From: Alphaproteobacteria bacterium
GTDB lineage: Bacteria > Pseudomonadota > Alphaproteobacteria > UBA2966
NCBI GenBank assembly: GCA_018650465.1
Contig: JABIFY010000127.1
Location: 1 to 61,990, forward strand
DNA: 61,990 nucleotides
Direction of reading: 5' to 3'
Of the stretch, positions 13,263 to 61,888 are shown piece by piece (position 1 is the stretch's first letter; each line of letters starts with the position of its first letter). Both the position numbers and the translations under genes were made by a program. Below the pieces are notes generated by a model. That model ran no database searches. It was not told the DNA's origin and worked only from the letters and a program-made list of their open reading frames with translations.

Positions 13263-15596
13263 TCAGCCCTTAACCGGTACCGGCACTTTGAAGTCACTGG
13301 GTTTGCGGGCTGGCAAAGCCTGGACCTCGTAGGTGAAGGTCAAAGCACCATCTTCCAGCCCGACAATCACCCGGCCACCCTTGGCCAGCTTACCAAACAG
13401 TAGCTCTTCCGACAGCGGTTTTTTGATATATTCCTGGATCGCCCTGCTGAGTGGACGGGCACCGTTGAGTTTGTCATATCCCTTATCGGCCAACCATTCC
13501 CTGGCTGGATCAGTCAAAGTGATTTCCACATTTCGGTCATGCAACTGGACTTCCAACTGCAGGACGAATTTGTCGACGACACGGGCGACAATTTCTGGCG
13601 TCAGCGCACCAAAACCAATGGTCGCATCCAGGCGATTGCGGAATTCAGGTGAGAACATGCGCTTGATGGCTTCTTCGTCCTCCCCTTCCTTCAGGCCGCG
13701 TTGGAAACCAATGGCTTGCTTGCTCATTTCCTGGGCACCGGCATTGGTCGTCATGATCAGCACAACATTGCGGAAATCTACCGTTTTGCCGTGATGGTCT
13801 GTCAGCTTGCCATGATCCATAACTTGCAGCAGCACATTGAACAAATCCGGATGGGCTTTTTCGATTTCATCCAGCAGCAAAACCGTATGCGGGTTCTGGT
13901 CGACAGCATCCGTCAACAAACCACCCTGGTCAAAACCCACATAGCCCGGTGGTGCGCCGATCAAACGCGAAACAGCATGGCGTTCCATATATTCGGACAT
14001 ATCAAAGCGTGTCAGTTCCACACCCAGAATAGACGAAAGCTGGCGTGCAACTTCGGTTTTACCGACACCCGTGGGGCCAGAAAACAAATAACATCCAATG
14101 GGTTTTTCTGGCTCTCGCAAACCGGCACGTGCCAGTTTGATGGCGCTGGCCAGCTCGCCAATTGCCTTGTCCTGTCCAAAGACGACATTTTGCAGATCGC
14201 GCTCAAGTGTGCGGAGAAGCGACATATCGTTTTTGGAAACCGATTTCGGTGGAATGCGGGCAATCTTGGCAACGACAGCCTCGATATCTTTCACACCGAT
14301 GGTCTTCTTGCGCTTGTTTTCCGGCTTGAGCATTTCATAAGCACCGGTTTCATCGATCACATCGATGGCCTTGTCCGGCAGCTTGCGGTCATGAATGTAT
14401 CGGGCGGACAATTCAACTGCTGACTTGATGGCTTCAGCTGTGTAGCGAACGGAATGAAATTCCTCAAAATAAGGCTTCAAACCTTTCAGGATTTTGACCG
14501 CATCCTCAACCGATGGCTCTTTCACATCAATTTTCTGGAAGCGCCGCAGTAAAGCCCGATCTTTTTCGAAGTAAGACCGGTATTCCTTATAGGTCGTCGA
14601 CCCCACACAACGTAGTGTCCCTTGAGCCAACGCTGGCTTCAGAAGGTTTGATGCATCCATGGCACCACCAGATGTGGCACCGGCACCAATCACTGTGTGA
14701 ATTTCATCAATAAACAGAATTGCGCTGGGGTGTTCCTCGATCTCACTGATTACAGCTTTCACGCGTTCTTCAAAATCACCGCGATAACGCGTACCGGCCA
14801 ACAAAGACCCCATATCAAGCGAGAAGATAACCGCATCAGCCAGAACCTTTGGCACATCATCTTCGACAATCCGCCGGGCAAGGCCTTCAGCAATTGCGGT
14901 TTTACCGACGCCCGGATCACCTACGAACAAAGGGTTGTTCTTGGATCGACGACACAGGATCTGGATCGTTCGTTCAATTTCCTCGGCACGACCGATTAGC
15001 GGATCAATGCGCCCCGCTCGCGCTTTTTCGTTCAGATTAACGCAATAGGCATCCAGCGCTTCTGTTTCGCTGTCGTCCGATCCATCGTGATCAGCCGTAT
15101 GTTCGCTACCGTCATCTTCCTGGGCACCGCTCACACGTTTTGTCTCGGATTTACCCGGTGTCTTGGCAACGCCATGGGAAATATAACTGACCGCATCGAG
15201 GCGGGTCATGTTCTGTTTTTGCAGGAAATAAACAGCATGGCTTTCGCGTTCGGCAAAGATGGCAACCAGCACATTAGCGCCGGTTACCTCTTCCCTGCCC
15301 GACGATTGCACATGAATAAGCGCCCGTTGAACAACGCGTTGAAATCCAGCGGTTGGCTTCGGCTCGTCAAATTTTTCCAGAACAAGGCCTGCCAGTTCTT
15401 CCTGCAGATGATCATCCAGATCATGGCGCAATTCGTCCACATTGACGCTGCAGGCATTCATTACAGCAATGCCATCGTCATCTTCTGTCAACGCCAAAAG
15501 CAAATGTTCCAGCGTCGCAAATTCGTGGCGATGCTCAGCGGCAAGGGCCAGCGCTCGGTGCAGTGTCTTTTCAAGCTTGGAAGAAAATCCGGGCAT
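13263..15596 (-). CDS. clpA: ATP-dependent Clp protease ATP-binding subunit ClpA
   Basis: A 777-residue AAA+ unfoldase that feeds ClpP. The N-domain (about 1-145, FEEFATLEHLLLAL-like) is followed by an acidic linker rich in Asp/Ser (about 155-180). The first AAA module has Walker A GDPGVGKT near residue 230 and FIDEIHT. The second has GPTGVGKTEVARQ near residue 505, LLDEIEKAHPDLFN, and a C-terminal sensor region. Its ATG abuts the TAA of clpS with no gap, so the adaptor and unfoldase are coupled. ClpP is not in the window. Confidence 0.97.
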   Translation of the reverse strand: MPGFSSKLEKTLHRALALAAEHRHEFATLEHLLLALTEDDDGIAVMNACSVNVDELRHDLDDHLQEELAGLVLEKFDEPKPTAGFQRVVQRALIHVQSSGREEVTGANVLVAIFAERESHAVYFLQKQNMTRLDAVSYISHGVAKTPGKSETKRVSGAQEDDGSEHTADHDGSDDSETEALDAYCVNLNEKARAGRIDPLIGRAEEIERTIQILCRRSKNNPLFVGDPGVGKTAIAEGLARRIVEDDVPKVLADAVIFSLDMGSLLAGTRYRGDFEERVKAVISEIEEHPSAILFIDEIHTVIGAGATSGGAMDASNLLKPALAQGTLRCVGSTTYKEYRSYFEKDRALLRRFQKIDVKEPSVEDAVKILKGLKPYFEEFHSVRYTAEAIKSAVELSARYIHDRKLPDKAIDVIDETGAYEMLKPENKRKKTIGVKDIEAVVAKIARIPPKSVSKNDMSLLRTLERDLQNVVFGQDKAIGELASAIKLARAGLREPEKPIGCYLFSGPTGVGKTEVARQLSSILGVELTRFDMSEYMERHAVSRLIGAPPGYVGFDQGGLLTDAVDQNPHTVLLLDEIEKAHPDLFNVLLQVMDHGKLTDHHGKTVDFRNVVLIMTTNAGAQEMSKQAIGFQRGLKEGEDEEAIKRMFSPEFRNRLDATIGFGALTPEIVARVVDKFVLQLEVQLHDRNVEITLTDPAREWLADKGYDKLNGARPLSRAIQEYIKKPLSEELLFGKLAKGGRVIVGLEDGALTFTYEVQALPARKPSDFKVPVPVKG

Positions 15597-15986
15597 TTAT
15601 TCTTTCTCCATCGTGCACTGCAGGGGGTGTTCGCTGCGACGGGCGATATCAACGACCTGGGCAACTTTGGTTTCGGCAATATCGTAGGTGTAGACGCCGC
15701 AAACGCCGACGCCTTTCTGGTGGACATGAAGCATAATTCTGGTGGCATCTTCGCCGGTCTTGTGGAAGATGGCCTCCAGAATGCGAACAACAAATTCCAT
15801 GGGCGTATAGTCGTCGTTCAGCAACAAAACCTTGTACATAGACGGCTTTTTGGTTTTGGGCGATGTCCGGGTAGCGATGGCAGTGTCATTGCCACCGCTG
15901 CCGCCACCGTCGCCAGGGCGCCCTTTGCCGGGGTCGTTGGGGGTGGATTTATCTGGTCCTGCCCCGCGTATATCGCATGTCTTCAT
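15597..15986 (-). CDS. clpS: ATP-dependent Clp protease adaptor ClpS
   Basis: The N-end-rule adaptor that delivers substrates to ClpA. The conserved core is [40 protein letters not shown] and a C-terminal Cys/Glu-rich end. The frame stays open to 16274, which would more than double the length. I choose the ATG at 15986 because CAGGAC lies just before it and the resulting 129 residues fit ClpS proteins with a disordered Gly/Asp/Lys-rich N-terminal extension (about residues 1-40). The first gene of a clpS-clpA operon with a long leader. Confidence 0.93.
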
Positions 15987-16030
15987 GTTGTCCTGATCAA
16001 AAATTATTCGGCGGTCCGGAATGCGCCTCC

Positions 16031-16077
16031 GGCCGTACGGCCCGAAGCAGTGCAGGAAACGGCAAAACAGCGTTTCC
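16031..16077 (-). promoter_or_regulatory. Structured clpS leader: two hairpins
   Basis: GGCCGTACGGCC (16031-16042) is a perfect palindrome. GGAAACG (16055-16061) pairs with CGTTTCC (16071-16077). Both fall within the roughly 200-nt stretch between the phasin-side terminator and the clpS start, so they would lie in the clpS 5' untranslated region. No U-tract follows, so attenuation is not shown. Confidence 0.4.
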
Positions 16078-16198
16078 TTTCCATTCACATCAATAATATC
16101 GGTCTGAACAGGAATGATTCCAAGCCCACATCGGTAAATATCGTGCGAGCGACGATAAATAAGCTGTGGACTGTCGGAACTGGGCCGGTTTCGGCCAC

Positions 16199-16237
16199 AA
16201 AAAAGGGCCCGGTCAAAGGGGGAGGAAGACCGGGCCC
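16199..16237 (-). terminator. Rho-independent terminator downstream of the phasin gene
   Basis: Reading the minus strand, GGGCCCGGTC (16237-16228) pairs with GACCGGGCCC (16214-16205), a 10-bp G/C stem followed by six T (16204-16199). The 13-nt loop (16227-16215) is the anti-Shine-Dalgarno-like sequence described for the RNA candidate here. Confidence 0.92.
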
Positions 16238-16303
16238 AAATTGGAGAGAGTTGCAATACAACCCTTCCTGTCAAGTCGCCACTAAAGGGGGAGGAAAGTG
16301 GCG
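16199..16303 (-). ncRNA. Cuckoo-like small RNA candidate: two hairpins with identical C-rich anti-Shine-Dalgarno loops
   Basis: Hairpin A pairs CGCCACT (16303-16297) with AGTGGCG (16283-16277). Hairpin B is the terminator stem just described. The stems differ completely, yet both loops are the same 13 bases, TTCCTCCCCCTTT. This loop contains CCTCC, the anti-Shine-Dalgarno core of 16S rRNA. Two hairpins presenting CCUCC-type loops define the cuckoo/CcsR RNAs known from Rhizobiales and Rhodobacter. Here the element follows a phasin gene. It may be released from the phasin 3' end or made from its own promoter. RNA expression is inferred. Confidence 0.7.
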
Positions 16304-16308
16304 CCTTG

Positions 16309-16336
16309 TCTATATGCCGCCTGTATCAGGCAGCAA
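16309..16336 (-). promoter_or_regulatory. Possible promoter of the two-hairpin RNA
   Basis: On the minus strand TTGCTG (16336-16331) and TATAGA (16314-16309) are 16 bases apart. The predicted start near 16302 falls at the first base of hairpin A, so the RNA would be about 105 nt. The match to consensus is moderate and this could be chance. Confidence 0.35.
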
Positions 16337-16350
16337 TTGTGTCTTGAAGC

Positions 16351-16878
16351 TTAAGAAACGAAAGGTTTGGCGAATGATTCCATTGCAACGTTGGCGCGGG
16401 CTGAAACAGGCGCAATTGCTTCGTTAGCCAATTTGGTGCTCATTTCGTTGATTTCGGTTGTTTTGGCAACCAAGGCATCGAAAGTGGTTTTAGCCATTTC
16501 ACTTTGCATTTCAACAGCTTCCTGAGGGGATTTGACAGCCATCAGTTTGCTGAAAGAAGCCATGTTGGCTTCAAAAGCGCTTTTGGTGAAGTTCATGATT
16601 TGGGTGTTGATGGCTTCCATGCCTTTAGCGGCGATGTTGCCTGCTTCAACAACTGCGTCAACGTTTTCTTTGCTGAAGGCAGCAGCCTGGTCATAATTTT
16701 TGTTCATGGCGTCAGCTTGTTCCTTACTGAGAGTAAAGGCTTTTTCGTAACCTTTGTTTGCGGCGTCGTTGCCGGCGGTGACGAAGTTTTCCAAAGTTTC
16801 TTTGCTGGCAGCAGCCATGGAATCCATGGTTTTAGTTGCTGTATCTACAGTCGATTTGGTCGAATTAGTTTTAGCCAT
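16351..16878 (-). CDS. phaP: Phasin family protein (polyhydroxyalkanoate granule-associated)
   Basis: A 175-residue, almost wholly helical, Ala/Lys/Glu/Met-rich protein of the phasin 2 family. It has repeating amphipathic helices (AAASKETLENFVTAGNDAA, QAAAFSKENVDAVVEAGNIA) and the FTKSAFEANMASFSKL region. Phasins coat PHA storage granules. The start at 16878 (MAKTNSTKS) is chosen because AGGAAAA precedes it; upstream in-frame Met codons lack this. No PHA synthase, depolymerase or PhaR gene is in the window. The promoter and flanking boxes fit PhaR-type repression, and the 3' side carries the two-hairpin RNA. Confidence 0.9.
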   Translation of the reverse strand: MAKTNSTKSTVDTATKTMDSMAAASKETLENFVTAGNDAANKGYEKAFTLSKEQADAMNKNYDQAAAFSKENVDAVVEAGNIAAKGMEAINTQIMNFTKSAFEANMASFSKLMAVKSPQEAVEMQSEMAKTTFDALVAKTTEINEMSTKLANEAIAPVSARANVAMESFAKPFVS

Positions 16879-16994
16879 CTTCTTTTTCCTCATATGCACA
16901 TCTGCTGTTCGCAGTCGCGGTGAACGGGATCTATCATTGGCCCGTCTGAATATTTATCCAAGCAGTATCAGCCGCTTACCAACCAACCAATTAA

Positions 16995-17006
16995 TGCTGC
17001 ACTGCA
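16995..17006. promoter_or_regulatory. TGC-rich box 1, putative PhaR operator in the phasin leader
   Basis: TGCTGCACTGCA, identical to box 2 exactly 60 bp away. It lies just downstream of the predicted phasin transcription start. PhaR repressors of alphaproteobacteria bind TGC/GCA-rich sites at phasin promoters. Confidence 0.6.
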
Positions 17007-17016
17007 ATATATCAGG

Positions 17017-17045
17017 AATATGATACTTCAAGAGCGCTGTGTCAA
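17017..17045 (-). promoter_or_regulatory. Sigma-70-type promoter of the phasin gene
   Basis: On the minus strand a perfect TTGACA (17045-17040), 17-bp spacer, then CATATT (17022-17017). The start would be near 17010, giving a leader of about 130 nt. The two identical TGC boxes bracket this promoter, one upstream of -35 and one just after +1. Confidence 0.65.
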
Positions 17046-17054
17046 CATAAATTT

Positions 17055-17066
17055 TGCTGCACTGCA
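17055..17066. promoter_or_regulatory. TGC-rich box 2, putative PhaR operator upstream of the phasin -35
   Basis: TGCTGCACTGCA again, on the same strand and with the same 5' and 3' T/A context as box 1. A repressor bound to both would cover the phasin promoter. The rest of 17067-17288 shows no gene; it is A/T-rich and probably holds the promoter of the carboxypeptidase gene. Confidence 0.6.
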
Positions 17067-17288
17067 CAATATTTTCCAAATCTGCGAAATGGATGGAGGT
17101 TTTGCTGTTTAAAAACAGGGAATTATGGCATTATTTAGCCACTGATGGATTATTTGGGACATTTGTTTGAAATTTACACAAATTTAGGGTTGATGGCGCA
17201 ATGTAAGCCGTGATTCAATCGCTACACTTATGATGGCGGTGATTATATAAACCGGGTTCTTGTAATGATCCGGGTTCAAGGGGACTTC

Positions 17289-61659: not shown

Positions 61660-61888
61660 ATAGTGCATTATTGGTTTGTCGACGTGGTACCGGGATTTAT
61701 CTCAGGTGCGGCGGCGGTGATATCAGGACCACGTGTCAGTCCGTCAATTACTCACCCACCTGAGTGACGGGTGTTGGTCCAGATGTCAGCCTACCCTTCG
61801 ATCGACCCGGGATACTCCTCCCCCCCCTTGGAGTATCCTCTTCTACCCCGGCAATCCCGCCACCAGGATTGCCGGGGTTTTATTTTGT
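61660..61888 (+). ncRNA. Candidate structured small RNA ending at a strong terminator
   Basis: Four hairpins in a row with no coding frame of note. H1: ACGTGGT (61682-61688) with ACCACGT (61728-61734). H2: CCGTCA (61741-61746) with TGACGG (61765-61770) plus inner CTCA/TGAG and a CCCACC loop. H3: GGATACTCC (61810-61818) with GGAGTATCC (61830-61838), loop of T, eight C and two T. H4 is the terminator. I recognise no known RNA family. The 5' end and promoter are not located. A C-rich loop just before a terminator is typical of trans-acting RNAs. Confidence 0.5.
61846..61881 (+). terminator. Rho-independent terminator at the right end
   Basis: CCCCGGCAATCC (61846-61857) pairs perfectly with GGATTGCCGGGG (61866-61877), 8-base loop, followed by TTTT (61878-61881) and a further T-rich run. 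Confidence 0.85.

Follow-up and report, generated by a model that had tools for sequence, protein, structure and literature searches.

The minus strand of the window (the whole 61,990-nt stretch of DNA that was analysed) carries, behind the gene of a phasin (a protein that coats storage granules), two hairpins that have unrelated stems and yet present the same 13-base loop, TTCCTCCCCCTTT, with an anti-Shine-Dalgarno (aSD) sequence at its core. Sequence comparison across Alphaproteobacteria suggests that an aSD element recurs behind phasin genes that are linked to clpS and controlled by PhaR. We incline towards a process where the PhaR-controlled phasin mRNA bears in its 3' untranslated region (3'UTR) an aSD RNA that would, presumably upon processing, act on other mRNAs.

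Hairpins behind the phasin gene

The first hairpin (16272..16308, minus strand) begins about 45 nt past the phasin stop codon. Its core of 7 bp, CGCCACT-TTCCTCCCCCTTT-AGTGGCG (16303-16277, loop at 16284-16296), is lengthened past a G.A mismatch via CAAG/CTTG, resulting in 11 pairs over 12 positions (16308-16272). It is followed on the same strand by a predicted middle hairpin of 11 bp (about 16241..16266), the loop of which lacks CCTCC, and by a third hairpin (16199..16237, minus strand) that is predicted to be an intrinsic terminator, with a 10-bp stem and a run of six T. The terminator hairpin reads GGGCCCGGTC-TTCCTCCCCCTTT-GACCGGGCCC (16237-16205) and then TTTTTT, and its loop, at 16215-16227, is identical to that of the first hairpin in 13 of 13 positions. 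Minimum free energy and centroid predictions agree on this fold (-71.2 kcal/mol over 161 nt, z = -5.97, with none of the shuffled sequences as good), so that both the letters and the fold bear out the original prediction of a 7-bp hairpin and a 10-bp terminator with unrelated stems and a common 13-base loop.

The 13-mer occurs only twice in the 4.8-Mb genome, both copies being at the phasin 3'UTR, while the reversed pattern, used as a control, does not occur. A genome-wide search for a 12-mer of the loop with one mismatch returned scattered sites only, and none of the five inspected had the motif in a hairpin loop. Many palindromic, REP-like repeats (CCTCCCCC...GGGGGAGG and CCCTCCCCC...GGGGGAGGG) were noted in a sister species (G003) and in two further related genomes (G001 and G002; loci L004-L033 for the three), and none of this form was found in the genome of the window. 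A repeat origin of the loops was rejected on these grounds, as the 13-mer has no copies away from the phasin 3'UTR. A coding element was likewise rejected: although the open clpS frame continues upstream across the element, this region has acquired indels relative to the sister species, including a gap of 25 nt. A plasmid search gave no match.

Comparison with the sister species, the phasin of which is 90% identical, separates the two loops. In the first hairpin the loop is unchanged (13/13) while the arms differ at 10 of 24 positions (14/24 identical), and all 12 pairs are formed, by way of four double compensations, one A-U pair turned into G-U and one mismatch repaired. When the same arm positions were altered at random, as many pairs survived in 0.8% of trials, and the comparison is good evidence that this stem exists to present its loop. 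The terminator hairpin behaves in the opposite manner, as its stem is identical in the sister species while the loop, ATTGTCCCCCTTT, differs at 3 positions and lacks CCTCC; in the related genus represented by G001 this loop is ATTGCCCCCCTCCC. Because the terminator loop differs in both relatives, the exact repeat of the loop seems to be a new acquisition and the identical pair is in part recent. The CCTCC of the terminator loop has probably been gained in the species of the window, a loss in the sister species being a conceivable alternative. Most of the middle hairpin is conserved between the two species.

The alignment of phasin 3' regions of relatives that had been called for therefore divides the earlier claim of selection on the loops: it is supported for the first hairpin, where the loop is kept and the stem compensated, and by the class-wide enrichment described below, while conservation of the loops as a pair is not supported, since the sister species lacks the second aSD loop.

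The phasin gene itself (16351..16878, minus strand, with its ATG at 16878 and its stop codon ending at 16351) had been recognised correctly, as it matches Pfam Phasin_2 (PF09361, E 6.8e-26). The next gene downstream is clpS (15597..15986, minus strand; Pfam ClpS, PF02617, E 6.2e-37), followed by clpA (13263-15596). A phasin promoter, TTGACA-17-CATATT, is predicted at 17017..17045 (minus strand) with 10 of 12 consensus matches. It is the sole minus-strand promoter-like site that a simple consensus scan reported in 15900-17200, although chance alone would give 1.7 sites where the scan returned 2, so that the site alone is weak evidence. The same scan revealed no promoter-like site near the hairpins or in the 3' part of the phasin gene; an alphaproteobacterial promoter could escape so simple a consensus.

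The predicted promoter is flanked by two palindrome cores of the PhaR type, TGCACTGCA, at 16998-17006 and 17058-17066, which match the PhaR/AniA core YGCRNYGCR derived from Sinorhizobium meliloti (PMC12542648). In that organism phaP1 and phaP2 each have two PhaR/AniA sites around the -35 element (PMC12542648). A PhaR homologue is encoded in the genome of the window (PF07879, E 3.4e-30), and the boxes together with this homologue imply that the hairpin element should be made during PHA accumulation.

Recurrence behind clpS-linked phasin genes

Phasin 3'UTRs were gathered from Alphaproteobacteria via clpS and phasin searches, with the orientation of each locus set from open frames and the phasin profile, and comprised 107 non-redundant clpS-linked cases and 67 other phasins. 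Within 80 nt of the phasin stop codon, TCCTCC was found in 20 of the 107 clpS-linked 3'UTRs, where dinucleotide shuffles led us to expect 3.2 (0 of 200 shuffles were as high) and the reverse complement GGAGGA occurred in 1; for CCTCCC the count was 18 of 107 against 5.0 expected, with GGGAGG in none. The 67 phasins that were not seen linked to clpS showed no enrichment (TCCTCC in 2, GGAGGA in 2). In 11 of the 107 clpS-linked 3'UTRs CCTCC lies inside a hairpin loop, compared with 0.5 expected, and the mean predicted unpaired probability of the motif is 0.80 versus 0.38 for the remaining sequence. The motif is absent from 84 of the 107.

Its placement varies, as the motif occupies the terminator loop in some lineages (L118, L264, L266 and L047) and directly follows the stop codon in others (L105, L109, L132, L129, L257, L337 and L054). 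The 3'UTR in locus L158 (minus strand, about 1384-1475) has CCTCC in a hairpin and in a terminator loop, much like the window, and gave sub-threshold matches to 6C, BjrC68 and ar14. Other terminators in the same loci showed no enrichment, with CCTCC in 5 of 77, a small control set in which 2 of the 5 are phasins of the set listed under a second locus and one more (L081) is probably a phasin truncated by the contig end.

On a phasin tree, which is poorly resolved because phasin is short, the motif label needs 13 changes, 8 of them forced by well supported branches, and is nevertheless clustered (none of 500 shuffles needed so few); this indicates that the motif has been repeatedly gained or lost and is kept within clades. 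PhaR boxes were present upstream of all 22 motif-bearing clpS-linked phasins that had enough upstream sequence and of 63 of the 71 without the motif, so that the boxes mark the phasin class and not the motif.

Proposed action and alternative explanations

In the process that we favour, the phasin mRNA would end in the three-hairpin 3'UTR, two loops of which would expose a C-rich aSD sequence resembling the 3' tail of 16S rRNA. Being under a PhaR-controlled promoter, the transcript should become more abundant when PhaR is titrated by newly forming PHA granules. The 3'UTR could act on the mRNA itself or after cleavage, probably by RNase E, as an RNA of ~105 nt that ends at the terminator, and its loops would pair with strong Shine-Dalgarno (SD) sites of the GGGGAGG type in other mRNAs, which would then be translated less. 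Action in trans is preferred by analogy, from the silencing by the loops of NfeR1 and from the precedents for RNAs of 3'UTR origin.

The pattern GGGGAGG-N3-11-ATG was found at 46 places in the genome and its reversed control at 12, as expected of strong SDs generally. Among the better duplexes are starts of open frames predicted to resemble a PAS sensor kinase, an ABC-transporter binding protein, COQ9 and glutamine synthetase, these candidate names having been given by eye from the sequence. The target list comes from a single pattern search and is to that extent naive, and the shortness and generic nature of the aSD motif limit the weight of predicted targets. We advance more hesitantly, as an idea that is possible but somewhat doubtful, that in many families the PhaR-controlled phasin mRNA is dual-function, its 3'UTR giving rise to or serving as an aSD RNA, that PHA granule formation directly triggers repression of the translation of a set of strong-SD mRNAs, and that the aSD sequence was gained repeatedly at one gene. 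If true, translation control would be coupled to carbon storage by a single transcript across many kinds of Alphaproteobacteria, and the 3'UTR of one gene would provide a clear case of repeated aSD-RNA evolution.

As the element sits in the phasin transcript, its loops might instead base-pair to the ribosome binding site (RBS) of phasin itself or protect the 3' end, tuning the translation or stability of the phasin mRNA without any targets in trans. The phasin RBS in the window indeed has GAGGAA, complementary to UUCCUC of the loop. However, across 23 species the motif showed no preference in pairing for its own phasin RBS over those of other species (mean rank 0.49), and autoregulation via the own RBS was rejected for this lack of a pairing signal; nor were stronger SDs seen in motif-bearing phasins (5/23 vs 26/74). 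We thus regard action in cis as unlikely.

It is quite improbable that the element represents an independent sRNA gene of the cuckoo/alpha-r14 family with its own promoter, located between phasin and clpS by happenstance. The ar14 model does align over its full length (43.1 bits, E 1e-6), and NfeR1 is known to be transcribed from a sigma70 promoter of its own (PMC7143759). Against this, the score is below the cutoff of 58.8, the motif is missing from the middle hairpin, the simple consensus scan showed no promoter-like site just upstream of the hairpins, and the class-wide tie to clpS-linked phasins points to the phasin transcript. Other ar14-like matches in the class lie at different sites, with no phasin among the neighbour matches listed.

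The loops are long and pyrimidine-rich, as might suit binding by a protein or the sequestering of another RNA, rather than an aSD function. Sponging of RNA is possible in principle, while we know of no candidate protein for C-rich loops. What the lineages have in common is a core complementary to the SD, CCTCC(C), and we consider such roles no less improbable than a stand-alone gene. Although CCTCC is short, Alphaproteobacteria are often G+C-rich and most clpS-linked phasin 3'UTRs lack the motif, it is very improbable that an ordinary terminator and a neighbouring hairpin in C-rich DNA arose here by chance, given identical 13-nt loops on unrelated stems, a compensated stem in the sister species and a strand-specific enrichment strongly above shuffles.

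Relation to known anti-Shine-Dalgarno RNAs

The original prediction described a cuckoo-like RNA, and the covariance-model search it proposed found a real resemblance that stays below threshold: against the Rfam model of ar14 (RF02344), the hairpin region scored 43.1 bits in a full-length alignment (1-123) against a gathering cutoff of 58.8, the match coming from cmscan on a short stretch, whereas a genome search with RF02344 did not report the site at 16200, a difference that we ascribe to the filters of that search. No Rfam family matched at its gathering threshold within the window. A second weak ar14-like match (28.8 bits) was noted at 61769-61883 (plus strand), where a hairpin, GGATACTCC-TCCCCCCCCTT-GGAGTATCC, precedes a terminator within an intergenic region with no evident plus-strand gene upstream. 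At the contig end (61850-61990) a 47-bp unit, itself a terminator-like hairpin with a T run, occurs three times in tandem. Identities with BjrC68, SorX, 6C and anti-hemB were rejected, as matches here or in related loci were all below cutoff. Two Hyphomicrobiales phasin 3'UTRs gave sub-threshold SorX matches (L066 2705-2773, 29.8 bits; L074 2715-2775, 35.8 bits; cutoff 46.6).

The cuckoo/alpha-r14 RNAs, such as NfeR1/Smr14C2 of S. meliloti, have three successive hairpins of which the last is an intrinsic terminator, as is predicted here, and are about 105-123 nt long, a length that our element may share, with the aSD sequence unpaired in the loops and hypervariable stems (PMC10746234, PMC7143759, PMC3927594). 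Their identical aSD loops silence mRNAs by pairing with ribosome binding sites and are redundant (PMC10746234). Conserved loops on diverging stems are seen in the first hairpin of our element, and the third shows the opposite. Unlike alpha-r14, which has CCUCCUCCC in each hairpin loop, the window has the motif in two of three loops, as TTCCTCCCCCTTT with the aSD sequence CCUCCCCC; and, unlike NfeR1 with its own promoter, the element lies behind phasin with none detected nearby by the simple consensus scan.

CcsR RNAs also display CCUCC loops. CcsR1-4 of Rhodobacter sphaeroides are cut from the 3'UTR of the ccaF1 (DUF1127) mRNA of the CIN1 locus, which ends at a terminator (PMC8625941, PMC10253847), and a 3'UTR origin is known for SorX and PcrX as well (PMC8625941, PMC9438474). 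Our element resembles CcsR1-4 in being an aSD element in an mRNA 3'UTR that ends at a terminator, and would be processed in a similar way, but differs in its host gene, which is phasin instead of DUF1127. The six DUF1127 genes of the genome all lie away from the phasin locus; the 400 nt downstream include a CCTCC for one of them, but for none a CCTCC placed in a hairpin loop, so that DUF1127-linked CcsR copies were rejected. By analogy, our best reading is that the element would function in the manner of cuckoo/alpha-r14 RNAs and of CcsR RNAs. We assign it to neither, because 43.1 bits is below 58.8, the middle loop is motif-free and its host is not a DUF1127 gene.

The association with phasin had been put forward as a context not described before, and we found no sRNA from a phasin 3'UTR in the open-licence literature that was searched. 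The nearest parallel is MmgR (alpha-r8, Rfam suhB, RF00519), an aSD-loop RNA that is tied to PHB storage and phasin and repressed by AniA/PhaR (PMC7143759, PMC12542648), a control that probably applies to our element as well. MmgR is, however, a separate, trans-encoded gene of 77 nt, unlike the element in the phasin 3'UTR, which scored 16.7 bits against RF00519 (cutoff 41). If our reading is true, rhizobia have in MmgR a separate solution that exists beside the phasin-3'UTR route.
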